Source of the DNA: Sphingopyxis sp. YF1
GTDB taxonomy: Bacteria; Pseudomonadota; Alphaproteobacteria; Sphingomonadales; Sphingomonadaceae
NCBI RefSeq assembly: GCF_022701295.1
Contig: NZ_CP033204.1
Location: 2,108,001 to 2,172,000 of the forward strand
Direction: 5' to 3'
Length of the DNA stretch: 64,000 nt
Under the pieces are notes generated by a model. It searched no databases. It saw only the letters and a list, made by a program, of their open reading frames with translations, and was not told the DNA's origin. A program made the translations under genes and the position numbers. Positions 12,445 through 35,744 of the stretch are shown here, in pieces. The first letter of the stretch is position 1. Each line of letters starts with the position of its first letter.

Positions 12445-12563
12445 TGCAAAACTCCTCCAGTCCGGCTCGTCGATTCCGTCATTATTCCGGAATAAATTTG
12501 AGCTTTCTGTCGAAACGTGAAATTATCATCGAGCGATATCCGATCATGTCAGGAGAATCTTCG

Positions 12564-13019: not shown

Positions 13020-13035
13020 CATCAGCCGGGCACGT

Positions 13036-14448: not shown

Positions 14449-14556
14449 GAACGTCCCCCGCCCGACCATCACGACGGTCGGGATCGACATCGGTAACCGG
14501 CGCCATGCCTGTCAGGGGCAGGCGTGGCGCCGGTGCTCTCGGCGGAAAACCGCGCG

Positions 14557-16191
14557 TTACTGGCCGGTTTTGGCCTTTTCGCTTTCGACCATCGCCGCAA
14601 CGTCGGCGAGCAGTTGCTTCGCGTCGTAAACGATGCCGTCCTTGATGGTGAACTTCACCCCGCCGACGACCTCCTGCTTGTTCGTCTCGGAATTGAGGCG
14701 CTGGAAGCCGGTGCCGTAGAGCGTCTTGAGATTCTGCAGCGGGTTTTCCGGTACGACCACGAGGTCGGCGAGCATGCCTGCGCGCACCGCGCCGATCGGC
14801 GGCGTTTCACCGCGCGGTTCGTACAGCGTCTGCGCGCCCATCATCGTCGCGGCGCGGATCACCTCGAGCGGCGAGAAGCCCGCCTCGCGCAGCAATTCCA
14901 GCTCTTCGACATAGGCGAAGCCATAGACTTTCCAGATGAAGCCCGAGTCGGTGCCGACCGTGACACGACCGCCCATATTCTTGTAATCGTTCATCAACCG
15001 CATGAAGAGGCCGTAGAATTTCTTCCACGCAAATTCATTCTCGGTCGTCCAGTCGAAGAAATAGGAACCATGATTGTCGCGGGTCGACTGGAAGTAGTTC
15101 CAGAGCTGGGGCGTGGTATAGCGCGCATGCCAGTCGGCATTGCGCGCGCGCATCAGGTCGCGCGACGCGGCGTAGATGTTGAATGTCGGGTCGAAGGTGA
15201 CGTGGTTCGCCTTCTGCGCTTCCAGATATTCCTGCCACTGCTTCGTGCCGGGCCCGTAAACCTGATCCCAGATCTCGGCGACCTCGCCGAAGCGGTGCTG
15301 CTCGTTGTTGTAATCATATTGCGACGGGAAATCCTGGATGGCGCGGCCGTTGAGCAGCGATTCCATATGCCCGTAATAGTGGGTGATCGTGTTCAGCCCG
15401 GCATCACCCGCCTGGCGGCCATTGAAATTCGCAACGCCGATCTGGCTGAGGTGCGCGGTGGTGCCGAGACCAAGCTTCTTCGCTTCGTCGAGCGCCGCGG
15501 AAAAGACATCGGGGGTTTCATTCTCGCGATTGAAGAATTTGATGCCGTCGATGTTGTTCTTCGCGGCCCAGCGCACCCATTCGCGAGCCTTGAGCGGCGT
15601 GTCGACCACCCCGCCGGTCCAGCCGGCCCCCAGCGTCTGATAGTTAAAGATGCGCGGCGCGGCGATCTCGTTGCGCGCCGAGCGGTCCTTCTCGCGGCTG
15701 GCGACCGCGGGCGCGCCCAGCGGCACGCCCCGCACCGTCGTCACGCCGTGCGCGAGCCACAGCTTGTAGGCATAGCTGGCGTCGGGCGCCTTGTCGGCGC
15801 CGGGCAGGTGGACGTGCATGTCGGTGAAGCCGGGCATGACGTACATGCCGGTCGCGTCGATTTCATAATCGGCATCGTCGGGCGCGCGATTGGCGGCGGA
15901 GGGAAGCCCCGGCCAGCCCGACTGCTTGATCGACGTAATGCGGTTGCCTTCGACGACGATGTCAAAACGGCTGCGCGGCGGTCCGCCGGTGCCGTCGATG
16001 ATCGTCGCGTTGCGGATGACCATCTTGCGGAACGGGCCCGCACCCTCGCCGGCTTTGCGCGCCGGCGCGCCTGCGCTGACCGGGAAGGTTTCGGCCGCCG
16101 CGGCAGCCTTTTTCTCGCCGGCCTGGTGCGCGGTTGCCGGCACCGCGAGCAATGCCGCAGCCAGCGCTATTTTGGTTAGCTTCAACTTCAT
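14557..16191 (-). CDS. secreted metal-dependent amidohydrolase (first of two tandem paralogues)
   Basis: 544 aa with a signal peptide (residues 1-21, ending AVPATA). The amidohydrolase core starts at MVIRNATIIDGTGGPP and shows the metal set in order: HVH in TDMHVHLPG, Lys in DGIKFF, His in TTAHLSQ, His in ITHYYGHMES and Asp in GTDSGF. The C-terminal barrel strand PIGAVRAGMLADLVVVPENP is typical. Such enzymes cleave amide or cyclic bonds, including dipeptides with N-terminal blocks; the substrate here is unknown. It aligns along its whole length with the next gene upstream, evidence of tandem duplication. Confidence 0.88.
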   Translation of the reverse strand: MKLKLTKIALAAALLAVPATAHQAGEKKAAAAAETFPVSAGAPARKAGEGAGPFRKMVIRNATIIDGTGGPPRSRFDIVVEGNRITSIKQSGWPGLPSAANRAPDDADYEIDATGMYVMPGFTDMHVHLPGADKAPDASYAYKLWLAHGVTTVRGVPLGAPAVASREKDRSARNEIAAPRIFNYQTLGAGWTGGVVDTPLKAREWVRWAAKNNIDGIKFFNRENETPDVFSAALDEAKKLGLGTTAHLSQIGVANFNGRQAGDAGLNTITHYYGHMESLLNGRAIQDFPSQYDYNNEQHRFGEVAEIWDQVYGPGTKQWQEYLEAQKANHVTFDPTFNIYAASRDLMRARNADWHARYTTPQLWNYFQSTRDNHGSYFFDWTTENEFAWKKFYGLFMRLMNDYKNMGGRVTVGTDSGFIWKVYGFAYVEELELLREAGFSPLEVIRAATMMGAQTLYEPRGETPPIGAVRAGMLADLVVVPENPLQNLKTLYGTGFQRLNSETNKQEVVGGVKFTIKDGIVYDAKQLLADVAAMVESEKAKTGQ

Positions 16192-16280
16192 TCGACCCGT
16201 TTCCCCGTTCTGATTGACCAGCTTGTGTATGTACGATCGAGCGGCGGGGCGGCGGCGTCTGCACCGCCCCGGCGATCGGT

Positions 16281-17969
16281 TCAGGGCAGCGGAACGCCCT
16301 CTTCGGGAAGCCCCATCCGCCGCTTTTCGGCCTTCACCATCTCGGCGACATCGGCGAGCAGCTTTTTCGCGTCATAGACGATGCCGTCCTTGATCGTGTA
16401 GCTGACCCCGCCGACGCGCTCGAGCTTCTGCGTCTGCTCGTTGAGGCGCAGCGCCCCGGTGCCATAGAGCGTCTTGAAGTTCTGGAGCGGATTTTCCTTC
16501 ACCAGCACCATGTCGGCAAGCTTGCCGACGCGCACCGTGCCGATCGGGGGCGCGACATTGCCCTTCGGTTCGTAGAGCGTCAGCGCGCCGTTCAGCGTCG
16601 CCGCCTGCACGACCTGCGTCGGGTTGAAGCCGGCCTCCTGGAGCAGTTCGAGTTCCTCGACATAGCCGAAGCCATAGGTTTTGAAGATGAAACCCGAGTC
16701 CGATCCGGTGGTGACGCGACCACCGATATTCTTGTAGTCGTTCACCAGATGCATGAATTTCTTGTAGAAATTCCGCCAGCGCACTTCCTTCTCGGTCGTC
16801 CAGTCAAAGAAATAGGACCCGTGGTTCTCGCGCGATGACTGGAAGAAGTTCCAGAGCTGCGGCATCGTATATTTGCCGTGCCAGTCGGCATTGCGCGCGT
16901 GCATCAGGTCGCGCGACGCGGCGTAGATCGTCATCGTCGGGTCGAAGGTGACGCCATTCTTCTTCTGCGTCTCGAGATAGTCCTTCCACTCGTCGGTGCC
17001 GGGTTCGAAGCTCTCGCGATACAGGTTGGCGACATTGCTGAAGCGATCCTGCTCGTCCATGTAATTGTAGCTCGGATCCCAGTTCTGGACCGGGCCTTCC
17101 TTCAGCAGCGATTCCATATGGCCATAGAAGTGGGTGACGGTGCCGAGCCCGGTTTCGCCTGCATGCCGGGCGTCCATCCGCGCGACGCCGACCTGCGACA
17201 GGTGCGCAACGGTCCCGATATGCTGCTTTTTCGCTTCGTCATAAATCGCCTCGAGCACTTCGGGCGGCTGGTTCGGATCGGCCGCCACCTTGATCCCGTC
17301 GATCCCCGCCTTCGCGGCCCAGCGCACCCATTCGCGCGCCTTTTCGGGCGTGTTGGTCAGCCCGCCGGTCCAGCCGCGGCCCGATCCCGGGCGATGGTAG
17401 GAAAAGATGCGCGGCGCGGCGATCTCGTTGCGCGCCGACCGCGCGCGCTCGTTCAGCGAGATTTCGAAGGGCGCCAGATCGACGCCGCGGACCGTGGTGA
17501 CGCCATGCGCCAGCCACAGCTTGTACGAATAGCTGAGGTCGGGCGCCTTGTCGTCGCTCGACCCGTGGACGTGCATGTCGATGAAACCGGGCAGCATGAA
17601 CATGCCGGTCGCGTCGAGTTCATAGTCAGCGTCGCGCGGCGCGCGGCCCGACACCAGCGGCAACCCGGGCGTACCCGCTGCCTCGATCGAGGTGATGATG
17701 TTGTTTTCGACGACGACGTCGACCGGGCCGCGCGGCGGGGCGCCGCTGCCGTCGATCAGCGTCACGCCGCGGATCACCATCTTGCGGAACGGGCCGGCGC
17801 CTTCGCCTGCCTGCCGGGCAGGCGCCGCGATGGCACCGGCGCGCGGCTTGACCGCTTCGGCGGCGGGCGCGGCATTTTGCGCCTGCGCCGATGCCACCGG
17901 AATGGAACACAAGAGTCCGGCCGTCCCGGCCATCAGCGTCCGCCATGCGGCCACGCGCAATTTCACCAT
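16281..17969 (-). CDS. secreted metal-dependent amidohydrolase (second of two tandem paralogues)
   Basis: 562 aa with a signal peptide ending ASAQA. Same architecture as its neighbour: HVH in IDMHVHGSS, Lys in DGIKVA, His in TVAHLSQ, His in VTHFYGHMES, Asp in GSDSGF, and the final PIGTVRVGKLADMVLVKENP. Whole blocks are identical or nearly so in both genes (for example SREN/TRDNHGSYFFDWTTE), but the region after the catalytic Lys differs most (AADPNQPPEV against NRENETPDV), which could change the substrate. Gap to the next gene is 89 bases; same transcript is likely. Confidence 0.88.
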   Translation of the reverse strand: MVKLRVAAWRTLMAGTAGLLCSIPVASAQAQNAAPAAEAVKPRAGAIAAPARQAGEGAGPFRKMVIRGVTLIDGSGAPPRGPVDVVVENNIITSIEAAGTPGLPLVSGRAPRDADYELDATGMFMLPGFIDMHVHGSSDDKAPDLSYSYKLWLAHGVTTVRGVDLAPFEISLNERARSARNEIAAPRIFSYHRPGSGRGWTGGLTNTPEKAREWVRWAAKAGIDGIKVAADPNQPPEVLEAIYDEAKKQHIGTVAHLSQVGVARMDARHAGETGLGTVTHFYGHMESLLKEGPVQNWDPSYNYMDEQDRFSNVANLYRESFEPGTDEWKDYLETQKKNGVTFDPTMTIYAASRDLMHARNADWHGKYTMPQLWNFFQSSRENHGSYFFDWTTEKEVRWRNFYKKFMHLVNDYKNIGGRVTTGSDSGFIFKTYGFGYVEELELLQEAGFNPTQVVQAATLNGALTLYEPKGNVAPPIGTVRVGKLADMVLVKENPLQNFKTLYGTGALRLNEQTQKLERVGGVSYTIKDGIVYDAKKLLADVAEMVKAEKRRMGLPEEGVPLP

Positions 17970-20946: not shown

Positions 20947-22092
20947 ATGAGGAACAGCGCGGGGGATGGAGCGGAGGGACGCCTCGCGTTGATCGATAGC
21001 GTCTATGCCTGCGCGGTCGATCCCGAGCGCTGGGCCGCGTTCCTCGACCAGATCACCCGGACATTCTCCGGCTTTTCGACGATCTATCGCTGGCCCAACC
21101 GCAATCCCGGCGACAACAGCCCGCTCTTCGACAATTTCGGCGAGTTCGGCGATCTCTACAGGGAACATTTTCACAGTCGCAACGTCTGGGTGACCGAGGT
21201 CGACCGCCCAACCTCGGCGCGCGCCATCGTCCCCTCGGAGGGGCTGGTGAGCAACGACCGGCTCGAACGCACCGAATTTTACGGCGACTGGATGCAGCCG
21301 CAGGGGCTGAAGCACGGCGTTTCCTGCCTGCTCCGCGACGGTCACGACTTCTCCTATAATCTGGGGATCATCCGCGGCCCCGAATTCGGCGCTTTCACCG
21401 GCGAGGAACAGCGGCTGCTGGCCGATATCCTGCCCCACATGAGCCGCGCGCTCGAACTCGGGCAGGTACTCGAGGCGTTCCAGCAACGCAGTTCGGGCAT
21501 GCTCCGCGCCTTCGACACGCTCGGCGTCGGCGCCCTGCTCGTCGATGCCGGTTGCCGGATCCATTTCGCCAACCCGCTCGCCGAGCGACTGCTCGCCACC
21601 GAAAGCGCGCTACGTGCGCCGGGCGGCCGGCTCGGCCTGACCCGGCCCGCGCTCGACGCCGGATTGCGCGCCGCCATCGACGCCGCGACCGGCAGCGGCC
21701 GCGAGGCCGGCGGGCGCACGGGCAAGATCCTGTCGGTTCCGCGCACCGGCGGGTCGCCGCTCTCGCTCAACATCGCGCCGCTCGACGAACGCGACCGGAT
21801 CATGTTCGGTACGGGGCCGCTCGCGCTTGTCGTCGTCAGCGACGGCAGCCGGTCCGTCGACCTCGACACCGGCGCGCTGCGATCGGCTTTCGACCTGACC
21901 CTCGCCGAAGCGCGGCTGGCCGCGGCGATCGCGTCGGGCACCACCCTGCCCTCCTATGCGTCGTCCACGGGGGTCAGCCTGTCGACGGTCCGCACCCACC
22001 TCGCCGCCATATTTTCCAAGACGAACACGAACCGACAGGCCGATCTCGTCCGCCTGCTGACCGGCAATCCCTGGCTGCAAAAGGCCGACTGA
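20947..22092 (+). CDS. LuxR family transcriptional regulator (first of a convergent pair)
   Basis: 381 aa. The last 60 residues hold a LuxR-type helix-turn-helix (FDLTLAEARLAAAIASGTTL ... STVRTHLAAIFSKTNTNRQ). The N-terminal 200 residues are an unassigned sensory region containing the block RTEFYGDWMQPQGL, and a PAS-like middle part (GVGALLVDAGCRIHFANPLA). No signal peptide or membrane segment. It ends 9 bases from the end of a paralogue on the other strand. Position next to the TonB receptor suggests a role in controlling that uptake locus; the signal is unknown. Confidence 0.85.
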   Translation: MRNSAGDGAEGRLALIDSVYACAVDPERWAAFLDQITRTFSGFSTIYRWPNRNPGDNSPLFDNFGEFGDLYREHFHSRNVWVTEVDRPTSARAIVPSEGLVSNDRLERTEFYGDWMQPQGLKHGVSCLLRDGHDFSYNLGIIRGPEFGAFTGEEQRLLADILPHMSRALELGQVLEAFQQRSSGMLRAFDTLGVGALLVDAGCRIHFANPLAERLLATESALRAPGGRLGLTRPALDAGLRAAIDAATGSGREAGGRTGKILSVPRTGGSPLSLNIAPLDERDRIMFGTGPLALVVVSDGSRSVDLDTGALRSAFDLTLAEARLAAAIASGTTLPSYASSTGVSLSTVRTHLAAIFSKTNTNRQADLVRLLTGNPWLQKAD

Positions 22093-22101
22093 GCCCCGCG
22101 A

Positions 22102-23241
22102 TCATCGCGCGAGCAACAGGACCGGGTCGTTCATCAACCGGCGGATCAGGTCGGCCTGCCGGTTTTCGCCAGACTTCAGGAAGATCGAGGTCAGGTGCGT
22201 CCGCGCAGTGGTCAGCGCGACGCCGCTGGCGCGCGCATGATCGGCGAGGCTGGTGCCGTTGCACAGCGCCACCGCGAGCCGCGCTTCGGCCGGCGTGAAA
22301 TCATAAAGATCGCGGAGCGCCTCGACAGGAAAGGCCGCGCGCCGGTCGGGCATGCCGACGATGACCAGCGCGAGCGGCCCGCCGTCGAACAGCGAACGAC
22401 GCGCTTCCGAATAGGGGCTGACCGCGACCGACAGGGGATTGGGGCTGTTCGCGCGCGGCACCGCGACCAGCGTCGCGGTCCGCCCCGCGGCGTATCGCCC
22501 CTGCCCGGCCGCGTCGGCGATCGCCCGGGTGAGCCGCTGGTCGCTGGCGCCGCCGGCACAGAGCCGGCCGCCGGTCGACGACAGCCCGTCGCCCGCCTCG
22601 AGCATCGTTTCCGCGACCCCGTTCGCAAAGCGGATCGTGCGCCGCGCGTCGACGAGCAGCACCCCCGCCCCCAGCCGCTCGAAAGCGTCGAGCGACGCGG
22701 CGTCGGCAGCATCGAAGACGTTGAGCCGGTTGGCGATGATGATCGCGCGGCGCAGATGCGGCAGCAGGGCATGGCTGAGCGCCTGCTCGTCGGCGCTGAA
22801 CGCGCCCGCGCTTTCGGGGCGCAGCAGCAACAGGTCCATCACCCCCATCGGGGCATCGACGCGCCACCGCATCGAAAGATCGAGCCCCTGCGGGCGCATC
22901 CAGTCGGCATGGAATTCGGTGCGCCGCAGGTCGGCCATCGAAATCAGCGCCTCCTGCACCACGATCGGCGGCGACGCCGCGACCCGGTCGCGTTCGGACA
23001 TCGGGTCCTTGCCGGCATAGTGCCGATAATATCGGTCCAGATAGTCGGGGTCGATCGTTGCTTCGGCCGACCGGACGTCGGTCAGATTGCTGCTGCGCGC
23101 GATCCGCATCGCGGCGACGCTGCCGAATGTCTGCGATACCAGGTCGAGATAGGGTCGCCAGCCGTCGCGATCGGTCGCGGCCTTGTAGACGGCGTCGATC
23201 AGCATCGTGAAACGGCCGTCGTGCGGCGAAGGGGAATTCAT
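22102..23241 (-). CDS. LuxR family transcriptional regulator (second of a convergent pair)
   Basis: 379 aa and organised exactly like its convergent neighbour: sensory N-terminus with RRTEFHADWMRPQGL, PAS-like middle (GAGVLLVDARRTIRFANGVA), and C-terminal helix-turn-helix (YDFTPAEARLAVALCNGTSL ... TTARTHLTSIFLKSGENRQ). The two share length, block order and the DNA-binding helix pattern, so they are paralogues despite divergence. Together they may read different signals or compete for similar sites. Confidence 0.85.
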   Translation of the reverse strand: MNSPSPHDGRFTMLIDAVYKAATDRDGWRPYLDLVSQTFGSVAAMRIARSSNLTDVRSAEATIDPDYLDRYYRHYAGKDPMSERDRVAASPPIVVQEALISMADLRRTEFHADWMRPQGLDLSMRWRVDAPMGVMDLLLLRPESAGAFSADEQALSHALLPHLRRAIIIANRLNVFDAADAASLDAFERLGAGVLLVDARRTIRFANGVAETMLEAGDGLSSTGGRLCAGGASDQRLTRAIADAAGQGRYAAGRTATLVAVPRANSPNPLSVAVSPYSEARRSLFDGGPLALVIVGMPDRRAAFPVEALRDLYDFTPAEARLAVALCNGTSLADHARASGVALTTARTHLTSIFLKSGENRQADLIRRLMNDPVLLLAR

Positions 23242-23583
23242 GGGCAGCCATCCTGATCAAGGTCAGGATCGCCCCTCCGCGCCATCGGCGGAATGCGGAC
23301 AAACGTACCGGAAGGACGATCCGTCCGTCCCCAGACACGCAAAAAAACTGCTTCGCCTCATTCATTCATACGAGGCGGAGCCCGCGATCCTTTGACTATT
23401 CGGCCCTCCACCGGGGTGCTCTCGCTTGCGCGGGCAACTCAGGAACCGGGATCGCACCCCGAAAAGAGCCTGATCGCCATGTGCGGAAGGTTCGCATGGT
23501 CCGTCCGCCATACCCCCGATGGCGGGCGGGCCATCACCCCATCATGTGTATCAAGGAGGCCGGCGTGCGCCGGTAGGACATCT
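23242..23583. other. intergenic leader with an imperfect hairpin
   Basis: About 340 bases between the divergent LuxR gene and the autotransporter fragment. At 23498-23532 GGTCCGTCCGCCA pairs imperfectly with TGGCGGGCGGGCC around a nine-base loop. It has no following T run, so it is not a simple terminator; it could be an mRNA leader structure. No gene supported. Confidence 0.4.
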
Positions 23584-24787
23584 ATGAATTGCAAACCCAA
23601 TCTTCTGGGCGCTTCGGCGCTCTACGGAACGCTTGCGCTCGTCGCACTGGGAACGGCGCAGCCGGCCCGCGCCGCCTGCACGACCCTGATCGACGACCAG
23701 CAGCGCAAGATCCTGACCTGTACCGGCGACAATGAGGGACCGGTCGCCGTACCCGTTGACATCGACCAGTTCCGGAACAGCGGCACCATCACCCCCGCGG
23801 CCGGAACTCCCGGATCGGGCGTGACCGGCGGCCCGGGCAGCGCCGGAATCGTCAACGACGGCACGATCCGTGGCGACCTCTCCTCGGCCATATCGGTTAA
23901 GAGCCTTCGGGCCGGCGCGCGAATCACGAACAATGGCACGCTGACCGTCGACAACAGCCAGTCGCGGGGCGCCAATAATTTCGGCATCCTGGTTGAACAA
24001 AGCGGCGCCGGGCTGACGACCATCATCGAGAACGCCGGGCGCATCGAGGCCGACGGCCCCTATGGCGGCGGCATCCTCGCCTATGGCAATGCCCGTATCC
24101 TGCACGCCGGCCCCAACGCGCTGATCGAAATAGGCGGTCTCGGCGGCACCGCGATCAGTGGCGAGCGCGCCGATGTCAGCATCCTTGCGCCCGTCCGCGC
24201 GGCGGAGGGCAATGGCGTGGTGCTGACCGACCGGTCGACGGTCGACAATTCGTCGGAAATCATCGCCGGCAGCAACGGCATCTATATGGGCCGCGGCGGC
24301 AGTGTCGTGAACCGCCCCAATGCGGTCATCCGTTCGACGGGCGGCACCGATGCAGCGCTCGACCTGAACGACGGCAATATCGAAATCGTCAACGAAGGGA
24401 TCATCGACGTTGCCGGTATTGCGGCCGATCGCGCGGTGATCGCGTTCAGCAACAATATCGGCGGCCCCGAAATGGTGCACAAGATCACCAACGCCGCGCT
24501 CGGAACCATCGGCCATGCCGGCATGACCGCCGGCGCGCAGGCGATCCGCGGCGACGACGGCATGCGCTTCGAGCTTCGCAACGCCGGGCGCATAAACGGC
24601 GACATCCTGCTCGCGGACGGGAACGACAGCATCGAAAACGGGTCCGGCGGCGTCATCGACGACGATATCGCGACCGGTACCGGCGACGACAGCATCCGTA
24701 ACGCGGGCACGATCAACGGCGATATCGACATGGGCGACGGGCGCGATGCCCTCTTCCTCGCCGAGGGATCGGTGCTGAACGGCGATG
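23584..24787 (+). pseudogene. autotransporter passenger domain, 5' part only
   Basis: About 400 codons starting MNCKPNLLGASALYGTLALV, with a signal peptide ending PARAA, followed by repeated short units of the kind N-x-G-x-I/L (NNGTLTVDNS, NAGRIEADG, NEGIIDVAG, NAGRINGDI, NAGTINGDI, GSVLNGDA). These make a beta-helix like that of type V autotransporter passengers. At 24785-24793 the sequence switches into a catalase gene in another frame, so the rest of the passenger and the outer-membrane barrel are missing. The frame stays open to 25392 but translates catalase DNA out of frame. AGGA lies upstream of the ATG. Reads as a deletion fusion, or an assembly error. Confidence 0.75.
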
Positions 24788-25783
24788 CGCGGCTATCTCG
24801 ACACACAGAAGTCGCGGCTCGGGACGACAAACTTCCACCAGATCCCGATCAACGCGCCCAAATGCCCGTTCCACAATTTCCAGCGCGACGGGCTGATGCA
24901 GACGCTGGTTCCCAAGGGCCGCGCCAATTACGAGCCGAACAGCCTTGCCGAAGCGGGCGAGGATGCAGGTCCGCGCGCCTGCCCCGACGCCGGCTTCACC
25001 ACTTTTCCGGCGAACAACGAACGGAACGACCCGGCCGAGAAGCTGCGCATCCGCGCCGACCTCTTCGCCGATCATTTCAGCCAGGCACGGCTCTTCTTTT
25101 GCTCGCAGACGGAGAACGAGCAGGCACATATCGCCTCGGCGCTGGTGTTCGAGCTCTCGAAGGTCACGCTCGACCATGTCCGCGCCCGCGTCGTCGGTCA
25201 GCTTCGCAATATCGACGAGGATCTCGCGAAGCGCGTCGCCAAGGGGCTCGCGACCGATCTTCCCGCGAGGATCAAGCCCGCCAAGGCCGCCATCGACATG
25301 GCGCCGTCAGATGCGCTGTCGATCCAGAAGGACGACCGTCCCGACATCAAGGGACGAAAAGTCGCGATCCTGTTCGCCGAAGGCTCCGATAAGGACACGA
25401 TCTACAAGCTCAGGACGCAGATCGAGAAAGCCGGCGGCAGCACCTTCCTCGTCGCCCCCAAAGTCGGCGGCATTCCTGTGTCCGGCGGAACGCTGAAGGC
25501 CGACGGGCAGCTCGCCGGCTCGCCCTCGGTGCTGTTCGACGCGGTGGCCTCGGTCCTGACCGAAGAGGCCGCGAACAAGCTCAGCCGTGAAGGCGCGGCG
25601 GTGCAATGGTTCATGGACGCCTTCGGCCATTGCAAGACGATCGCGCACGACCAAGCGAGCCGGGTGCTGCTCGACAAGGCCGGGGTGGAGTTCGACGAGG
25701 GCATCGTCGCTCTCGCCGATTTCATAAAGGTCGGCACGCGCCGCCGCTGGGACCGCGAGCCCAAGGTGCGCGACCTCGCGTAA
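24785..25783 (+). pseudogene. large-subunit catalase (KatE/HPII type), 3' part only
   Basis: About 330 codons matching the C-terminal half of clade 2 catalases. It begins at GYLDTQKSRLGTTNFHQI, normally preceded by RLFS, followed by PINAPKCPFHNFQRDG; the Tyr of this block is the proximal haem ligand in the family. The C-terminal amidotransferase-like domain is present (GRKVAILFAEGSDKDTIYKL ... GSPSVLFDAVASVL). The first 370-400 residues, with the distal catalytic His and Asn, are absent, so no active enzyme can result. The in-frame ATG 24785 is created by the junction and has no well-placed ribosome site. Confidence 0.85.
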
Positions 25784-25872
25784 TGGCCCGATCCGGGACG
25801 CGCTGAAGCCTTTTTGCCTGGCAACATCGGCATTCGGCGCGCGTTGAGCAAACAACAGGAAAGGGAGATAAT

Positions 25873-26367
25873 ATGACGCGCTTGCTGTTGGTTATGGCAT
25901 CGGCCCTGTCGATCGGGGCCGCGACCCTCTCGCTACAGTCATGCGGTGCCCAAAGCGTCGAGGCCGCGTCGCCCAGCGGCCCGGTCAACGCGCTACTGAC
26001 CCTTCCCGACGGCTCGACCTTCGTCGCTGCCGAGGGTTCGCTGCCTCGCGGGATCGCCGAATGGCTGGCATCGCGCGAAGGCGACGAAGCGCGGTTCGCA
26101 TTTGCCGGATTCGACGAAGATCGGCCGCGGCTGACCAGCAAAGGACTTGGATCCGCGGCCGATCTCGCGACTATCCTCCGTGCCGCTCCGGCTGCATCGC
26201 TCGAAATCGCGGGGGACGAGGCCCAGGCGAAGGCGCTGGCAACCATGCTCGATGAACGGGGCATCGGTTCCGAGCGATTGAAGATCATCCCCGCCGCCGG
26301 GCTCGGCAGCGTGATACTGACCGTCCACCGCGGTTCAACCGCCCCGCTGATGACCGCTAAACCCTGA
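25873..26367 (+). CDS. small exported protein, possible lipoprotein
   Basis: 164 aa. The N-terminus MTRLLLVMASALSIGAATLS followed by LQSCGAQ is a signal sequence with a possible lipobox at Cys24. The C-terminal half (GLGSAADLATIL ... ASLEIAGDEAQAKALATML ... RGIGSERL) has the spacing of an OmpA-C-like peptidoglycan-binding fold, but the key Asp/Arg pair is not clear. AAAGGGAG precedes the ATG. It follows the catalase fragment by 90 bases. Function unknown. Confidence 0.6.
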   Translation: MTRLLLVMASALSIGAATLSLQSCGAQSVEAASPSGPVNALLTLPDGSTFVAAEGSLPRGIAEWLASREGDEARFAFAGFDEDRPRLTSKGLGSAADLATILRAAPAASLEIAGDEAQAKALATMLDERGIGSERLKIIPAAGLGSVILTVHRGSTAPLMTAKP

Positions 26368-26371
26368 CAGT

Positions 26372-26659
26372 TCAATCCGGCGGCAGCGCCAGCATAAGCC
26401 ATGTTGATCGCCTTGTGGCGATCGAAGTCGGGAGGACCGTCGGCTCACCGCACGGGCCGCGCTCGCCAAGCGCCCGTTTGGCGCGATCGACGGCCGCCCT
26501 CGCCCGGCGAATGGCGGCTGCGTCCTTCCCGCCTCGTGCCGCACGAACCGCGCTCCGCGCTGCCATCCGCTGGGACGCAAGACGCGCGCGATCGTCTTCA
26601 GACAATGCCGGGTTGATATGCGCCAAGGGGGCGACCGCGAACCTTGAAGGAGCGGCCAT
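26372..26659 (-). pseudogene. small alphaproteobacterial protein of unknown function, probably frameshifted at the 3' end
   Basis: The frame gives 95 aa beginning MAAPSRFAVAPLAHINPALS, with a basic helical middle (ARAAVDRAKRALGERGP). From memory, proteins of this type in sphingomonads continue after GERGP with a Trp-Trp-x-Asp-Gly block. Here the called frame reads CGEPTV instead, while another frame shortly afterwards reads ADGPPDFDRHKAINMAYAG, preceded by a stop. This fits a small frameshift plus loss of the Trp codons. No convincing ribosome site is visible. Confidence is limited because the comparison is from memory. Confidence 0.35.
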
Positions 26660-26842
26660 CGGGCGTAACCGGATAATGGAAGGGTGGCTTTGCAAGGACG
26701 GCCTGCCGCCCACGCTACGCGCGCCCTGACATAGTCGTGTGCCGGCGACCGAAGGGTTGGCCGCCGGCACCCGTGGGGGAAGACGGAAGGAGGCTTCCAT
26801 CATCCCCGGAAGGCGGGGCTCCGAACTGCAGAGCCCGGTAGA

Positions 26843-27013
26843 TCATGGCAGTGTGCGGCGACCGCGCCCGAAGACGAAGGCAACAACGAAAAGAACGACG
26901 CCGATGACGAGAAGAATCTTCGCAAAGTCGGCCGAGAGACCGGCGATGCCACCGAAGCCGAGCAACGCTGCGACAAGGGCGACGACGGCGAAGATGATGG
27001 CCCATCTGAACAT
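26843..27013 (-). CDS. DUF1328 (YtjA-like) small membrane protein
   Basis: 56 aa: [20 protein letters not shown], then [20 protein letters not shown] and a short basic tail. Two membrane helices with the central G-G-I-A-G-x-(S/A)-A motif are the defining pattern of DUF1328. GGGAG stands seven bases before the ATG; the longer frame upstream is not coding. An EcfG-like promoter lies about 110 bases upstream, so it is probably a stress-induced membrane protein. Its molecular role is not known. Confidence 0.88.
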
Positions 27014-27123
27014 GATATTTCTCCCGCTGTTGGGCGCGTCCTCGCGCCCCGCGCGCAAGCGAAGAGGCAGCGAAGCACGCCGTACCATTCATCCGAAGTG
27101 GATGTGCACGCAACGCAGACGAC

Positions 27124-27148
27124 AACGCAGACGAACATATTTGGTTCC
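27124..27148 (-). promoter_or_regulatory. EcfG-type promoter for the DUF1328 gene
   Basis: On the minus strand GGAAC (27148-27144) is followed after 16 bases by CGTT (27127-27124). This matches the known GGAAC-N16/17-CGTT signal of the alphaproteobacterial general stress sigma factor EcfG. It points to the DUF1328 gene, whose ATG is about 110 bases downstream. Confidence 0.6.
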
Positions 27149-27203
27149 AGCAATATCGCTGACAAATGGGTTTCATAACATAGATTAAGTTCATGATTTT
27201 AAT

Positions 27204-27228
27204 GGAACAATTGCCCATCCAGCGCGTC
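27204..27228 (+). promoter_or_regulatory. EcfG-like promoter for the Gln/Asn-rich peptide gene
   Basis: GGAAC (27204-27208), 16 bases, then CGTC. One base of the -10 differs from the EcfG consensus CGTT. It lies 50 bases upstream of the ATG at 27278. Confidence 0.5.
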
Positions 27229-27277
27229 TCCATGAGGCCCACACCCCCGAGGGCAACACCGCGAAGGAGAGGCCATC

Positions 27278-27445
27278 ATGGCGCAGAATAACCAGCAGGG
27301 CGGCAACCAGCCCAACCAGAACCCCGGTCAGGACGGCCAGCAAGAACAGCAGGATCAGACCCGCCGCCAGCCGAACCAGAACCAGGACGACAATCAGGGT
27401 GGCAACCAGGCCGGCCGCGACGACGAAAATCGTCAGAACCGCTGA
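27278..27445 (+). CDS. small Gln/Asn-rich hydrophilic protein
   Basis: 55 aa, starting MAQNNQQGGNQPNQNPGQDG and ending DDENRQNR. It is almost entirely Gln, Asn, Gly, Asp and Arg with no hydrophobic core, so it is predicted to be disordered. GAAGGAGAGG before the ATG and good codon structure support it. It sits behind an EcfG-like promoter among stress genes. A degenerate relative lies at 29354-29500 on the other strand. Such low-complexity peptides are often desiccation or stress proteins, but that is inference. Confidence 0.75.
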   Translation: MAQNNQQGGNQPNQNPGQDGQQEQQDQTRRQPNQNQDDNQGGNQAGRDDENRQNR

Positions 27446-27527
27446 TCATCCAGCGACAGACGAGCGCGTTTGCGGCGCTCTCTGGGCCGGGCCGTCGCTC
27501 CCGCACGGTCCGGCTTCGCTATATCGG

Positions 27528-27553
27528 GGAACGGCTAAATCCCGAGCGACGTG
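27528..27553 (+). promoter_or_regulatory. EcfG-like promoter for the DJ-1/PfpI gene
   Basis: GGAAC (27528-27532), 17 bases, then CGTG; one mismatch from CGTT. Located 65 bases upstream of the ATG at 27618. Confidence 0.45.
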
Positions 27554-27617
27554 ACGACACCGAAACGCGCTGGTCCGCCGTCCCCCGTTGCCGATATCAT
27601 TCGAAAAGGAAATTCCC

Positions 27618-28172
27618 ATGAACGCGCCCCTCGCCGCTCGCCGCATTCTTATCATGGCAACCGATGGATTCGAGCAGTCCGAACTTGAGGTTCCGCTCGA
27701 AAAACTGGAGGAGGCCGGCGCCGAGGTCCGGGTCGCGTCTCTGAAAGAGGGACAGATCGAGGGGTGGGACGACGACAATTGGGGCGACGAGATCGACGTC
27801 GACTTGCTGATCGCGGACGCCCGCGCCGAAGATTTCGACGCACTTGTACTACCCGGCGGCCAGATCAACCCCGACCTGCTGCGCGTCGAGGAGGAGGCGA
27901 TCGCGCTCATCCAGGCTTTCGCCGACGCCGACAAGCCTGTGGCAGCGATCTGTCATGCGCCCTGGCTGCTCGTCGAGGCGGGCCTTGCGAAAGGCCGAAA
28001 CATGACTTGCTACAAGTCGATCCGCACCGATGTTGCCAATGGCGGCGCCCAAGTCTTTGACAAAGAGGTCGTGGTCGACGGCAATATTATCACCAGCCGC
28101 TGTCCCGACGATCTGCCGGCATTTTGCGACGCAATCATAGAGACCGTGGTGCGTGTCGGCGCCGATGCCTGA
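27618..28172 (+). CDS. DJ-1/PfpI family protein (general stress protein 18 type)
   Basis: 184 aa. Residues 8-30 (RRILIMATDGFEQSELEVPL) begin the flavodoxin-like fold; Glu in FEQSEL and the nucleophile Cys in VAAICHAPWLL with the following His are the family's catalytic set. Members act as glyoxalases, deglycases or proteases of disputed activity and are commonly stress induced. The start has AAGGAAA nearby and fits the family length. An EcfG-like promoter lies upstream. Confidence 0.9.
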   Translation: MNAPLAARRILIMATDGFEQSELEVPLEKLEEAGAEVRVASLKEGQIEGWDDDNWGDEIDVDLLIADARAEDFDALVLPGGQINPDLLRVEEEAIALIQAFADADKPVAAICHAPWLLVEAGLAKGRNMTCYKSIRTDVANGGAQVFDKEVVVDGNIITSRCPDDLPAFCDAIIETVVRVGADA

Positions 28173-28274
28173 GACGTGGCGAGCCCCCTGTCAGCCCCGC
28201 GGGAACCATGACGACGTCGCTCGCATTTCGGCAGCGGATGTACCGTCAGACGTTAGATGAGGAGAGCTGGCATA

Positions 28275-29015
28275 ATGTTCGATCGGGATATGGCGCCGCC
28301 GGGCATGGCGATCTTTCTTGCGAAGCTGCTCAGCCACAGCCTGCTTTCGACCGAGGACTAGGCGGCGATCGCCGCTCTTCCGCACCAGACGCGGCGCCTC
28401 GAGCCCAACGACTATATTTTGCGCGAAGGCGACCGGTCCGATATCTGCCCGGTCCTGCGGTCGGGCTTCGCTTACCGGCAGAAGATAACCGAGGGCGGCG
28501 GGCGCGAGATCGTCTCGATCAAGATCCCGGGCGACCCGCTCGACTTCCAGTCGATGTATCTTCGCACCGTCGATCATAATCTGCAGGCGCTGACCGCCGT
28601 CGAACTGACCGTCATCATGATTTCGGATTTCGAACGCCTGGTACAGGCGCGTCCCGCAATCGCGCGCGCCGTCATGGTCGACATTCTCATCGAAGCCTCG
28701 ATCGGCCGCGAATGGCTTCTCAACAATGGCCGCCGGAATGCGCTCGCGCGTCTCGCGCACCTCTTTTGCGAGCTCCACTACCGGCTGCTCGATACCGGCT
28801 CGGGCGGCCTCGACATTCACAAAATGCCGCTCACCCAGGAACAGCTCGCCGACGTGCTCGGTCTGACCCCTGTCCATGTGAACCGGACACTGAAGGCGCT
28901 GGAACGCACGGGCGCCATCGCCCGCGACGGCCGCGGTATTCGCATCGCCGATCTGCAATCATTGATCGGCACTGCGGAATTCTCCGACCTCTATCTCCAC
29001 CGTGACCAGCCCTGA
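28275..29015 (+). pseudogene. Crp/Fnr family regulator interrupted by an in-frame amber codon
   Basis: From ATG 28275 the frame reads MFDRDMAPPGMAIFLAKLLS, then HSLLSTED, a TAG at 28359-28361 (codon 29), and continues AAIAALPHQTRRLEPNDYIL through the cyclic-nucleotide-binding-like barrel to a C-terminal helix-turn-helix (TQEQLADVLGLTPVHVNRTL). All parts are in one frame and the protein would be 246 aa, the family norm, so a single base change explains the stop. Restart at TTG 28419 would give a 198-aa protein lacking the first strands. Sequencing error, real mutation, or readthrough are all possible. Confidence 0.7.
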
Positions 29016-29035
29016 CCCCCGAAGGAGCAGACGAG

Positions 29036-29299
29036 ATGGGACGTTATTTCTTCCACACACGTGACGGCTATCGCGAGATCGACGAAGTAGGCATCAACCT
29101 TCCCGATGACAAAACCGCGGGACTGGAGGCGATACGCTATGGCGGAAGCCTTCTCGCCGACGACCCTCATATTCTGCGACACGACCACGGACTGCGCGTC
29201 GAGTGCGTCGACGATGCAGGAAGGCTCCTTTACACGCTACTGGTCACCTCAGTCGACGCAAACGGAAATCTCGCAACCCTCGCGACCGAGAAGGATTAG
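29036..29299 (+). CDS. DUF6894-like small protein
   Basis: 87 aa starting MGRYFFHTRDGYREIDEVGI. The opening M-x-R-Y-(F/Y)-F-H followed by a D-x-x-G-x-x-(L/F)-P-D pattern is what is seen in DUF6894 proteins, widespread in Rhizobiales and sphingomonads and usually found near stress genes. It follows the Crp/Fnr gene by 20 bases with AAGGAG upstream, so both may be cotranscribed. Function unknown. Confidence 0.7.
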   Translation: MGRYFFHTRDGYREIDEVGINLPDDKTAGLEAIRYGGSLLADDPHILRHDHGLRVECVDDAGRLLYTLLVTSVDANGNLATLATEKD

Positions 29300-29353
29300 G
29301 GACGAAACGGGCGCGCGCGAGCGGTCTTCCAGATACGAGAAGCAGGACTGCGG

Positions 29354-29500
29354 TCAGCGGTTCCGACGATTCCGATCATCGCTTCTGCCCGGGTTCCGGT
29401 CATCCATGCGCTCTTTGCCCGGCGGACGGTTCCGGCGGTCCTGCCGTTCCTGCTGGCGACCGCCGCCCGGCTGATTGCCGCCCTGCTGATTGTTCCGAGC
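29354..29500 (-). pseudogene. degenerate copy of the Gln/Asn-rich peptide gene
   Basis: On the minus strand one frame reads ARNNQQGGNQPGGGRQQERQ and ends DDRNRRNR followed by TGA at 29354-29356. This shares AxNNQQGGNQP and the ending (D/E)xNRxNR with the 55-aa peptide at 27278-27445. No ATG, GTG or TTG start exists in this frame upstream before a stop; the nearest ATG is in another frame. It therefore looks like a frameshifted or decayed paralogue. The rest of the 29300-29693 gap holds only the csbD promoter. Confidence 0.4.
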
Positions 29501-29638
29501 GAACCGCCAGTCCTCTTCCTGAAACCGCCCAAAGCGGGTATCGAGGAGAGGCTTTCCGGCCCCAATGTTCCATTGAAATCATAAGCTTAACCTATGTTAT
29601 GCAAGTCGTTCGCACGCGGCACAAATTCAGCTTTCGGA

Positions 29639-29664
29639 GGAACAGTCGCCGTGCGCCCCGCGTT
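29639..29664 (+). promoter_or_regulatory. EcfG-type promoter for csbD
   Basis: GGAAC (29639-29643), 17 bases, CGTT (29661-29664): a full match to the EcfG consensus, 30 bases upstream of the csbD ATG. Confidence 0.7.
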
Positions 29665-29693
29665 AAACGATCGAACTTCAACGGAGACTGATC

Positions 29694-29891
29694 ATGAACA
29701 GCGATACGATCAAGGGCAATTGGGAACAGGTCAAAGGCCATGTCCAGAAGAAGTGGGGCGAACTCACCAACGACGAGCTCGACCAGATCAACGGCAACCG
29801 CAAGATTCTGGCTGGTAAAATCCAGGAAAAATATGGTCGCGCGCAGGATGAAGCCGAGCGCGAGATTGACGAGTTCGAAAACAGCTACTGA
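29694..29891 (+). CDS. CsbD family stress protein
   Basis: 65 aa, starting MNSDTIKGNWEQVKGHVQKK and continuing WGELTNDELDQINGNRKILA. The I-K-G-x-W-x-x-x-K-G-x-x-x-x-x-W-G pattern is the CsbD signature. It is a small helical cytoplasmic protein, among the most strongly stress-induced in many bacteria, with no known biochemical activity. A perfect EcfG promoter precedes it and a strong terminator follows 17 bases after the stop, so it forms a single-gene unit. Confidence 0.95.
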   Translation: MNSDTIKGNWEQVKGHVQKKWGELTNDELDQINGNRKILAGKIQEKYGRAQDEAEREIDEFENSY

Positions 29892-29908
29892 TCCTTCCTG
29901 GATCGAAG

Positions 29909-29940
29909 AAAGTCCGCGCGGCCCTGTCGCGCGGACTTTT
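29909..29940 (+). terminator. intrinsic terminator after csbD
   Basis: A perfect 12-bp stem AAAGTCCGCGCG / CGCGCGGACTTT with loop GCCCTGT, ending in TTTT. Confidence 0.85.
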
Positions 29941-29979
29941 CCGTGCCCGGGTGGGAGCGGGCAAGGCGACAGGGGCAAG

Positions 29980-31926
29980 ATGACCACGACAACCAGCGGC
30001 ATGCTCTTTCGTCACGGAAAGTTTGGGTTCGACGCTCTCTCGCGCCGCGCGAGGCTCGCGGCGGGCGCGGGCGGCGCTTTTCTGATTATCGGCGCCCTCG
30101 GAATCGGGGCCTTTCCCGTTTCGGTGCTGCACGGCACTGCCGAACGCCAGCTTGGCGAACATTTCGGCGCCCCGGTCCGCATCGGCGCCCTGTCGCGTGC
30201 GGAGTTTTTCTCCTTCACACCCACGCTCGTCGTCGAGGATGTCAGCATCGCGCAGCCGACGTGGGCCGGCACAGGGTCGCTTTTCAAGGTCAGGCGCGCG
30301 AGCGCCCGGACACCGATCCTGTCACTGCTCTCGGGTGACCCCGCCATTCGCTCGCTGGACATCGTCGGGCTCGAAGCCAATCTCGTTCGCGACGCCAATG
30401 GCAAGAGCAATTGGGAAGGCTCCGGGGATAAGAGACCGGATGAGGCCGACCGCGAGCTGAAGCTCGACGCGCTGAGCATAAGGGACAGCCGCTTCAGCCT
30501 ACTCGACGCAAAGCGCCGTCTCGACATTGCCGGAACGCTAGAGGCAGCGGCGGACCGCAGCGTCACGCTGCGCGCCGAAGGCCGCTTCGACGGCGTTCCT
30601 GCGCGCCTTATAGCAACGGGCGCACCGCTCGGAGCCGCAAAGGGCTCGGCGTCCTGGCCCTTTTCGGCCAGCCTCGCGTCGCCGACGTTCCGGCTCGATG
30701 CCAAAGGCACGATGGCGGGTGGGCTGAACATGCGTGAGATGGATATCGAGATGAGTACGCGGGGGCAGACTCTCAAGCAGCTCGACTATATCATCGAAGC
30801 GGGGCTCTTCGGCACTCAGGATATCGACTTCGAGGGCAAAGTCCGGCGCCGCGGGCCCGACTGGTTCATCGACAGGCTCGGCGGCACGATCGGCCGCTCG
30901 ACGATCCATGCGAAGGCAAGTGTCCTCAAGCGCGAGGGGCGCACCAGGATCGACGCGACGATCGATGCGCCGCAATTCGATTTCGACGATCTTGCAGACG
31001 ATGCAGGGCTCGCGGCGGCCCGCGTGCGGGAAGCCCGGACCGGTCCGCGCATCATCCCCGAGACGCGCATCAACCTCTCGAAAATTGGGCCCACCGACGG
31101 TATCATAAGGTTCAACGCGCCGCGGCTCCTCATCAAGGGCGGCTCGGCCTTCCGCAGCCTCAAGGGCGATCTCGTTCTGGAGAAGCGCGTGCTTACGCTT
31201 CGCAACGCCGTTGCCGGCCTCGACAGAGGGCAGATGACCGGCTGGGTCAAGGTCGATTCCCGAGGCAGCGCCCCCCTTCTCTCCACCGAGCTGCGGGTGA
31301 CCGGCACCTCGCTCGACACCCTCGTAGGGCAGCCGTCGATGATCCGCGGGCCGCTCGAAGGCCTGGTCCGCCTGCAGGGGCGCGGCGACACGATCCGCGC
31401 CGCTTTCGCCGGCGGCAACGGCAAGATTGCCTTTGTCGCGCGCGGCGGCGCCATGAACCGGGCGGCCGCCTTCATCCTGGGGCAAGATCTTGGCGGCGCG
31501 ATCGGACAGAAGCTTGGCGACGACGACGCGATGGTCCCCATCCGCTGCGCCGTCCTCGCCTTCACTGTGCGTCAGGGTCTCCTCACGCCCGCGCCCTTGC
31601 TCATAGACACCAGTATTTCGAAAGGCGCTGCACGCGGCCGGATCGACCTCGACGGCGAGACGATCGCGCTCATATTCGGTGGTGCATCCAAGGGTGACGC
31701 CGCACTCAAGCTCGTCGATCCGATCAGGATCGGCGGAACGCTGTCGAGCCCGTCGATCACGCTTGCGCCGCCTGGAAAGCCCACTGGCAAGTCGGGCGGA
31801 ATCATCGGCGCGATCGGGCGCTCGATCGGAAGCGCCCTCGGATTGCGGAAGGATCGCGGCAAGCCTCCCACCCCGAGCGCAGCGCCCGCCGATTGCGACG
31901 CGCTCGCGGGCAAGGCGCTCGCCTGA
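29980..31926 (+). CDS. AsmA family protein
   Basis: 648 aa. One N-terminal membrane segment (AGAGGAFLIIGALGIGAFPV, about residues 29-48), then a large periplasmic region. The N-terminal AsmA domain shows FTPTLVVEDVSIAQP and LLSGDPAIRSLDIVGLEANL; the C-terminal domain ends with GAARGRIDLDGETIAL and IRIGGTLSSPSITL, typical of AsmA. These proteins belong to the bridge-like lipid-transfer or envelope assembly group. ATG 29980 has AGGGGC close by; ATG 30001 is possible. The gene is followed by the signalling operon on the other strand. Confidence 0.85.
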   Translation: MTTTTSGMLFRHGKFGFDALSRRARLAAGAGGAFLIIGALGIGAFPVSVLHGTAERQLGEHFGAPVRIGALSRAEFFSFTPTLVVEDVSIAQPTWAGTGSLFKVRRASARTPILSLLSGDPAIRSLDIVGLEANLVRDANGKSNWEGSGDKRPDEADRELKLDALSIRDSRFSLLDAKRRLDIAGTLEAAADRSVTLRAEGRFDGVPARLIATGAPLGAAKGSASWPFSASLASPTFRLDAKGTMAGGLNMREMDIEMSTRGQTLKQLDYIIEAGLFGTQDIDFEGKVRRRGPDWFIDRLGGTIGRSTIHAKASVLKREGRTRIDATIDAPQFDFDDLADDAGLAAARVREARTGPRIIPETRINLSKIGPTDGIIRFNAPRLLIKGGSAFRSLKGDLVLEKRVLTLRNAVAGLDRGQMTGWVKVDSRGSAPLLSTELRVTGTSLDTLVGQPSMIRGPLEGLVRLQGRGDTIRAAFAGGNGKIAFVARGGAMNRAAAFILGQDLGGAIGQKLGDDDAMVPIRCAVLAFTVRQGLLTPAPLLIDTSISKGAARGRIDLDGETIALIFGGASKGDAALKLVDPIRIGGTLSSPSITLAPPGKPTGKSGGIIGAIGRSIGSALGLRKDRGKPPTPSAAPADCDALAGKALA

Positions 31927-31934
31927 ATCCCCGC

Positions 31935-33014
31935 TCAGTCGCGTAGTTCGCGCGCCGCGAGCGGAAGCACTATCCGCGCGCGCATCCCTTTCCCTGTCCG
32001 CTCGCTCGTCCCGTAATGAACCTCGGCGCGGTGCGTCCTTGCGATAGCGGCGATGAGCTTCGTACCGAGTCCCGTGCCCTGCGCCGGCCGGTCGCTCGCG
32101 AAACCCGGACCATCGTCCTCGACGCTCAACTCGATCGATCGGTCGCCGACACGGCTGAGCCCGATCCGGATTTGCCCGTCGTCCGCCACATCATAGGCAT
32201 ATTTGCAGGCATTGCTGACCCACTCATTGGCGATCATGCCCAGCGCGACGGCCTTGTCGGTCGCGATCCGCAGCGGCTCCACCTCGGTCCGCACGTCGCG
32301 GCGCGCCGCGCCCGTCGACCAGCTCTCGCCAAGATCGGCGGCGAGGCCCGCCAGATAATCGTCCATGGCGACATATTCGACGTCATTGGTCGTGTAGAGA
32401 CGGCGGTTGACCTGCGCGACGGTCGCAATCCGCTGCTGCGTCTTCTGCAGCGCCTCGCGTGCCTCTGGATCGGGCAGCGTTTTGGCCTGCAGCGCGACGA
32501 ACGACATGATCATCTGGAGATTGTTGGCGACCCGGTGATTGACCTCCTTGAGGAGCGCCTCGAGCCGTGCATTGCTCGCGCGCAATTCCTCCTCGGCCCG
32601 CTCGCGGTCGCGGCGGAGGGCTGCGCGTTCGAGAACCTGTCCGAAGGTGTTCGCGAGCAGATCGAAGAAATCCGCGCCCACGGATTTCACGACATAGTCA
32701 TCGGCGCCCGCCTTGAGAGCGGCCACCGCGACACGGCTTTCCTCCGAGCCCGTTACATAAACGACTGGCGGACAGCCCGCGATCGCGCGCAGGGCTTCGA
32801 GCGTCGCAAGCCCGTCCTGCCCGGGCATATAATGATCGACGGCGATCAGATCGAATCGTCCCTCGCGGGTCATCGCCACGCCCTCGGCGCCGCTCGCCGC
32901 GAGGCTGACCTCGAACCCGTCGCGCGCAAGATTGCGCGAGACGAGACGCCTTATGCCTTCGTCGTCATCGATATAGAGGATATGCGCCACGGCGGCGGAC
33001 GCCCCGCTTCTCAA
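31935..33014 (-). CDS. receiver-domain histidine kinase (REC + HisKA_2/HWE-like)
   Basis: 359 aa. Residues 10-125 are a receiver: acidic pair in YIDDDEG, phosphoacceptor Asp in LIAVDHYMPGQDG, Lys in YVVKSV. A coiled coil follows, then the HisKA_2 phosphoacceptor block LLKEVNHRVANNLQMI and the ATP-binding N box NEWVSNACKYA and G boxes EDDGPGF and GTGLGTKLI. Kinases of this class drive the PhyR branch of the general stress response in alphaproteobacteria. The called start is a TTG overlapping the stop of the response regulator (TTGA); a GTG at 32990 is an alternative. No membrane segment. Confidence 0.88.
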   Translation of the reverse strand: MRSGASAAVAHILYIDDDEGIRRLVSRNLARDGFEVSLAASGAEGVAMTREGRFDLIAVDHYMPGQDGLATLEALRAIAGCPPVVYVTGSEESRVAVAALKAGADDYVVKSVGADFFDLLANTFGQVLERAALRRDRERAEEELRASNARLEALLKEVNHRVANNLQMIMSFVALQAKTLPDPEAREALQKTQQRIATVAQVNRRLYTTNDVEYVAMDDYLAGLAADLGESWSTGAARRDVRTEVEPLRIATDKAVALGMIANEWVSNACKYAYDVADDGQIRIGLSRVGDRSIELSVEDDGPGFASDRPAQGTGLGTKLIAAIARTHRAEVHYGTSERTGKGMRARIVLPLAARELRD

Positions 33015-33460
33015 GCCGGATCCGGGTCGGGGACCTGGATCACCGAAAGGAAGAGACCAAGCTGGCGGATCGCATCGGCGAAATTTTCGTAGTTCACCGG
33101 CTTCGTTATGTAGACATTGCAGCCGAGGTCATAGCAGCGCTGGATTTCGACCTTGTCGTCGGTCGTGGTGAGCACGACAACGGGCGTGCGGCGCAGCGCG
33201 CTTCCATCGCCCTTCAATCGGGCGAGAATGTCGGTGCCGCTCATGTCGGGCAGATTGAGATCGAGCAGGACGAGCGCCGGACCGTTGCGCGCGGGCCCGT
33301 CCTCGGCATCGTAGAGAAAGGCGAGCGCCGAGGTGCCGTCGGTGAAATGATGGATCGTATTCGAGATACCGGCGCGGCGGATATTCTTCTCGATCAGCCG
33401 GGCATGACCTTCGTCATCCTCGATCATCACGATGTTCACGGGTTGTTGTTGATCAGGCAT
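33011..33460 (-). CDS. single-domain response regulator (Rcp1-like)
   Basis: 149 aa, only a receiver domain: acidic pair in MIEDDEGH, phosphoacceptor Asp in LVLLDLNLPDMSG, Thr in VVLTTTDD and Lys in YITKPVNY. The slightly extended loop before the Asp is typical of Rcp1-type regulators that pair with phytochrome-like or CHASE-type kinases. ATG 33460 has GGCGGAG six bases upstream and overlaps the kinase stop by 8 bases. It can act as a phosphate shuttle between the two kinases of this operon. Confidence 0.92.
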   Translation of the reverse strand: MPDQQQPVNIVMIEDDEGHARLIEKNIRRAGISNTIHHFTDGTSALAFLYDAEDGPARNGPALVLLDLNLPDMSGTDILARLKGDGSALRRTPVVVLTTTDDKVEIQRCYDLGCNVYITKPVNYENFADAIRQLGLFLSVIQVPDPDPA

Positions 33461-34955: not shown

Positions 34956-35147
34956 CTTATCCGGTTCCCCCGCGCGCCGACTGGTGTCGCTGCATGGCGG
35001 GGGATCGGGCCGGGCGCAAGCCCCCGGTACGAGGCGGTGCCGGCACGCCGGGGCGAAATTTAACATGGATCAATCTGGCGGCGCTGGCGGGACGATCCGG
35101 CGCGCCTCGTCGCTCCCGCAAATCCGGCTATGGATGCGGGTTATGAT

Positions 35148-35705
35148 CTACTGCGCCGTGATCCGGACCAGCGACCAGTCGTAGCCGAGCGACCGCACCC
35201 GGTCTTCGAGATGCTCGAGAATCTCGGGGCCGGGCCGGGCCTCGCGGGTCAGCGCCCAGAGATACCGGCCAGATGGCTCCCCGACGATCGACCAGTCATA
35301 ATCGTCGCCATGGTCGAGAACCCAATAATCGCCTGCGAAAGGCCCGAAGAAGCGCACCTTCAGCTTGGCGTTGGTCGCCCTGTCGACGACCTTTGCCCTA
35401 CCCACCGACTTGTCAAATTTGCTTACCTCGCCGCCCCTGCGTCCGCGGTTGACGACGCGAACGCTGCCGTCGGGACCCAGGCTGTAATCGGCGGTCACGG
35501 CATCCATGCCTTTCTGGAAGGAAGCCTCGTAGCGGAACTGCTCGTACCAGCGGCCGCCGTAACGAACGAGATCGACCGGTTTGGCGGGTTCGGGCACGGC
35601 GGGGTTCCCGACGGGTCCCGGTCGCGGAATATATTTCCAGGCCGCCCAGACGACAGGCGCCGTGACAGCCGCACCGAGGGCTGCGATGATTGCCGGTTTC
35701 TTCAT
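35148..35705 (-). CDS. lipocalin family protein (Blc-like)
   Basis: 185 aa. A hydrophobic N-terminal anchor or signal (IIAALGAAVTAPVVWAAW) precedes a single lipocalin domain: the first strand motif RYGGRWYEQFRYEASFQ is the G-x-W-Y/F lipocalin signature, and GDYWVLDHGDDYDWSIVGEP matches the Blc-type second block. Bacterial lipocalins bind membrane lipids and are often stress induced. AAAGGAG lies before the ATG. It is upstream of the kinase operon in the same direction, with a 190-base gap. Confidence 0.9.
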   Translation of the reverse strand: MKKPAIIAALGAAVTAPVVWAAWKYIPRPGPVGNPAVPEPAKPVDLVRYGGRWYEQFRYEASFQKGMDAVTADYSLGPDGSVRVVNRGRRGGEVSKFDKSVGRAKVVDRATNAKLKVRFFGPFAGDYWVLDHGDDYDWSIVGEPSGRYLWALTREARPGPEILEHLEDRVRSLGYDWSLVRITAQ

Positions 35706-35744
35706 GAAAGCTCCTTTCGTTCGGGAGAAGCGCTGCCGACGGGC

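Follow-up and report, generated by a model that had tools for sequence, protein, structure and literature searches.

In Sphingopyxis sp. YF1, a stretch of DNA that opens as an autotransporter gene closes as a gene for a KatE-type catalase. This raises the question whether the two genes are truly joined in the living cell, by what event they came together, and whether the strain is left without this catalase. The window (the whole stretch of DNA analyzed, 64,000 nucleotides long) covers positions 2108001-2172000 of a single-contig genome of 4,367,405 bases that is rated 100% complete. The features considered here are the following, in window coordinates.

20947-22092, + strand: LuxR-type regulator A, with an uninterrupted frame; its counterpart at this place in the relative G024 is 81% identical
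22102-23241, - strand: LuxR-type regulator B, likewise uninterrupted, with 90.5% identity to its G024 counterpart
23584-24783, + strand: autotransporter gene, 5' remnant (N-terminus and the initial ~400 passenger residues, no beta-barrel), with a homolog in G024
23584-25392, + strand: out-of-frame read-through, ~400 autotransporter residues followed by ~200 residues of a non-catalase frame
24784-24793, + strand: junction, with autotransporter homology up to 24783 and katE homology from 24793
24785-25783, + strand: KatE/HPII-type catalase gene, 3' remnant (332-aa frame that opens in the junction), matching the end of PF00199, PF06628, PF18011 and NF008422
25873-26367, + strand: 164-aa protein of unknown family, 69% and 77% identical to katE neighbors in G021 and G007

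The two remnants and their junction

The left half derives from a classical (type V) autotransporter of the PF03797 class. The passenger piece (23584-24792) matches the protein of one genus relative, G024, at 79% identity (E 4e-198), and aligns to residues 1-400 of an intact protein of 1,616 residues, counted from the matching start, whose beta-barrel (PF03797) lies at residues 1345-1595. In contrast to this relative, the window piece has no PF03797 match, nor any other match in Pfam, and with ~400 of 1,616 residues kept, three quarters of the full length are gone, the barrel included. The description of the piece in the first-pass annotation, as a passenger deprived of its barrel, is thus borne out. 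By eye, the N-terminus of the remnant looks like a signal peptide.

The right half belongs to the KatE/HPII-type catalases (PF00199, PF06628 and PF18011, as in E. coli HPII). Intact catalases are up to 89% identical to the piece at 24791-25783 (E 7e-195), and the 329-330 residues that are kept are 83-89% identical to the intact catalases of three genus relatives. Within the 332-residue frame, both C-terminal domains (PF06628 and PF18011) are present, and PF00199 is matched at positions 331-382 only, i.e., its last 52 positions. The catalase HPII model NF008422 is covered at positions 411-748 with 261.5 bits against a cut-off of 1102, a threshold that by itself decides little, as the intact relative P0121 also scores below it (926.5 bits). 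The remnant begins at residue 408 of P0121 (736 aa), so that the last 330 residues are retained and the first ~407 are gone. The block around the proximal haem-ligand Tyr is kept, reading YLDTQKSRLG from 24794; it matches RLFSYLDTQKSRLG in P0121, which is aligned to RLFSYIDTQISRLG of a solved HPII-type catalase chain (P0121 residues 62-713 align with that chain). The VHARG and GNNIPVFF blocks of P0121, which we take to be the distal His and the Asn block of the haem pocket, fall within the part that is missing here. The window frame therefore shares the end of the HPII model and the Tyr block with this family, but lacks most of the haem pocket, and the distal His/Asn half of a functional KatE/HPII was found nowhere in the genome. 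This agrees with the earlier reading that katE has lost its distal half.

Intact homologs of the catalase exist: at least 120 full-length relatives were retrieved (the best 120 of 8000 scored), with lengths of 691 to 739 residues. No intact katE allele of the same species was seen among the matches listed, the best of which reaches 88.1% identity with the remnant, less than P0121 itself (88.8%). A plasmid origin was considered and rejected, as the 13 plasmid records that matched did so on the catalase part alone, at 74-78%. Judged by these alignments, both halves are real gene pieces, with similarities far beyond chance.

The proposed position of the join, at about 24785-24793, is confirmed by the abrupt end of one homology and the start of the other. 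In nucleotide comparisons, window positions 20980-24783 align with G024 at 82.9% over 3,815 aligned bases, and positions 24793-26357, 24793-26389 and 24793-25781 align with G021, G007 and G015, respectively, at 78-81%; in all three catalase relatives the homology begins at 24793. Local alignments give 24783 as the last base of autotransporter type, and 24794 and 24792 as the first of catalase type (loci L014 and L015, whose alignments both end at the join). For L012, L013 and L024 the local alignment continues upstream of the join with poor matches, and L011 and L016, aligned on the wrong strand, give no breakpoint.

The change of frame at the join is likewise real. The autotransporter frame that opens at 23584 runs for 602 residues and stops at 25392, within catalase DNA, whereas the frame of the catalase is a different one and opens at 24785. 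Past the join, the GC content by codon position is 0.65/0.44/0.82 in the catalase frame versus 0.83/0.65/0.44 in the autotransporter frame, indicating that this DNA is catalase-coded; since the autotransporter frame is out of frame there, no in-frame fusion protein results. The catalase frame opens at an ATG created within the junction, and no ribosome-binding site is evident by eye before 24785. The residues M-R-G precede the Tyr in the 332-residue protein, where intact relatives have F-S or F-C.

Origin of the join

Two pieces that are unjoined in the living cell could have been fused during assembly. A false join of two real loci would leave the other halves elsewhere in the assembly, yet none was found. 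Genome-wide, PF00199 has one match, the window piece (profile positions 330-382), and full-length P0121 also gives one match, through residues 405-736, at the window site. A protein search of the genome with the lost autotransporter part (20 of 20 candidates scored) returned nothing but another autotransporter, 48% identical and located at 4.19 Mb, which has an open frame of 1,712 residues and a barrel-domain match. A DNA search with the lost autotransporter part and its downstream neighbors (best 40 of 609 candidates) found no missing half. Its matches lay in the downstream neighbors (3.388-3.391 Mb), in the 4.19-Mb gene (65-69%), in the final 126 bases of the window piece (83%) and, over 35 bases, at another place in the window.

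Moreover, the protein opening in the junction is on record for 6 contigs, under one member sequence. These may be independent assemblies or copies of one deposit, and the latter would leave room for a chimera. Nevertheless, the absence of both missing halves together with the 6 contigs makes a chimera very unlikely, and in a complete, single-contig genome a false join must also have lost ~5 kb. Between the two possibilities raised by the first-pass annotation, a real deletion or an assembly chimera, the evidence thus favors a real join; for the deletion itself, the former adjacency of the two genes was not seen in the four relatives compared.

We consider that the site is probably the scar of an illegitimate deletion that joined the remnants of the autotransporter gene and katE. 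The two genes would once have stood head to tail, and a single deletion, reaching from within the passenger to just ahead of the haem-ligand codon, would have removed ~3.6 kb of the autotransporter gene, 1.2 kb of the catalase gene and anything between them. If the genes were neighbors, the loss would amount to at least 1,213 autotransporter codons and ~407 catalase codons, i.e., at least 4.9 kb plus the intervening DNA. Deletion-fusion pseudogenes are a known kind in bacterial genomes. The same is seen here: two genes without their facing halves, joined in different frames, with intact homologs in existence and the missing parts absent from the genome; only the gene pair is particular to this case.

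An intact autotransporter and katE side by side, the arrangement that a simple deletion would presuppose, was not seen in the four relatives compared (G024, G021, G007 and G015). Few genomes could show it: of 80 genus genomes, 2 have a near-full match to the autotransporter piece (one being the strain's own), and a third matches at 40% identity. A scan of named genomes with this piece gave one locus, on a MAG contig; that scan may leave aside records of the strain's own genome. No intact autotransporter was found in the protein collection at E 1e-60 among 7993 scored candidates, but this negative carries no weight, as the candidate set was full and perhaps taken up by low-complexity words. As the adjacency is unseen in these relatives, we infer the deletion, and the join may also stem from a rearrangement.

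The relative G024 has the autotransporter and no PF00199 match, and the flanks of its autotransporter block have their counterparts in the YF1 genome at 3.349-3.352 and 3.389 Mb, some 1.2 Mb away from the window. Upstream of katE in G021 stand the kinase genes that the window has at 31935-35066; for G007 and G015, none of the genes recognized upstream of katE is a window gene. The window region 24793-37300, with a Crp-like regulator, an AsmA-like protein stretch, sensor kinases and an FAD oxidoreductase, has counterparts near katE in G021, in another order. The 164-aa protein at 25873-26367, for which no Pfam, NCBIfam or PHROGs match was obtained at E 1e-3, comes after katE in G021 and G007 too and may be an old catalase partner that outlives katE here.

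Upstream of the autotransporter remnant, the label of regulator A comes from reading its sequence, as its match to a LuxR family model is weak (29 of 700 bits, far under the cut-off); regulator B, without a Pfam or NCBIfam match at E 1e-3, is named for its similarity to A (39% identity). The block of regulator A, regulator B and autotransporter is common to two species in different chromosomal places (20947-24783 in the window; 9169-16676 in locus L030). In G090, a gene 28-30% identical to these regulators adjoins a distant autotransporter homolog.

A history in which the two genes were never neighbors is less likely, yet a serious alternative. The regulator-autotransporter block would then have been moved or transferred in from another locus, straight into katE, and the lost halves would have gone with the reciprocal product or the donor. 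The different chromosomal region of the block in G024 speaks for such an event, as do its rarity in the genus, the reordered or differing surroundings of katE among G021, G007, G015 and the window, and the G024 homology, which has a sharp left edge at 20980, close to where the first gene starts, and its right edge at the join. Against it, in 22800-27000 no repeats of at least 18 bases span the join or closely pair its two sides, the repeats found being short, imperfect and 69-89% alike, and no transposase or recombinase was found among the neighboring proteins scanned with Pfam (part of the frames). In addition, the clean loss of both outer halves is equally expected from a deletion. More speculatively, the regulator-regulator-autotransporter block could be a movable module in the genus, and its join to katE could mark a rearrangement hot spot within an island of stress genes, the catalase being repeatedly broken and lost there under the cover of KatG; we regard this broader scenario as improbable.

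Selection on the remnants

Neither product should work: the passenger through loss of the barrel and its out-of-frame tail, the catalase piece through loss of the distal His/Asn, its own start region and the greater part of the haem pocket. The coding sequence of the catalase piece hardly reflects this. On its branch dN is 0.038 and dS 0.314, a ratio of 0.12 versus 0.095 and 0.078 for the two nearest intact genes; with L013 replacing L012 as the third sequence, dN/dS is 0.101 versus 0.102. Among 223 residues that are invariant in 13 intact relatives, 6 are changed in the piece, and each relative tested in the same way has 0-5 changes. For the autotransporter piece the pairwise ratio against G024 is 0.27, compared with 0.21 and 0.10 for the two neighboring regulators (pairwise values, with no split by branch).

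For the catalase piece these values amount to no more than a slight shift, as would fit a loss much more recent than the divergence from the relatives. As there is hardly any relaxation, the deletion would be recent or not fully neutral. A remnant could also have been kept for use, as a 332-aa catalase C-terminal part or an exported passenger with a new tail that is still active. In favor of such use, both frames are open and the dN/dS of the catalase piece is low, but the low ratio would mostly reflect the time before the deletion. With the catalytic half and the barrel both lost, the frame shifted at the join and no evident ribosome-binding site ahead of the catalase frame, we consider continued use highly improbable, and a non-functional deletion scar remains the reading that we prefer.

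Catalase content of the strain and the genus

The expectation that the strain is without this stress catalase holds: the PF00199 profile and P0121 searches identified no second KatE elsewhere in the genome. It is to be qualified by an intact KatG, with a frame of 738 residues that scores above two NCBIfam cut-offs. No match to a manganese catalase was found in the genome.

The lack of KatE with KatG present is ordinary in the genus. PF00199 is matched in 57 of 80 genus genomes, the own genome included (53 of them better than 1e-150), and 23 have no match, though some of these absences may be gaps, as four of the 23 (G072, G086, G088 and G093) are less than 90% complete. PF00141 is matched in 75 of the 80, including 20 of the 23 without PF00199. 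The relative with the nearest intact katE, G021, shows the reverse of the window strain, with three PF00199 matches and no PF00141 match.

Another broken katE is present in G050, where a separate N-terminal KatE-type piece (residues 28-157, 75% identity) lies at 4772-5161 of locus L065. The C-terminal catalase piece in G045 reaches only 48% identity, and the G059 locus holds a near-full catalase. When the loci of G045, G050 and G059 were compared with the window, no breakpoint shared with other broken catalases was seen.

In the titles and abstract openings of the literature on Sphingopyxis catalase or katE, and on fusions, pseudogenes or deletions of catalase and autotransporter genes, no such case was found. 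As to its kind the event is nothing new: it is an ordinary gene-loss scar, in two genes that are absent from many relatives. For annotation it carries a warning, because the 332-aa "catalase" at 24785-25783 matches all three Pfam domains of the long catalases and should nevertheless not be a working enzyme. As far as the sequence tells, the strain has no intact KatE, one intact KatG gene and no manganese-catalase match, and the locus is one more clear instance of how patchily KatE is distributed in the genus.
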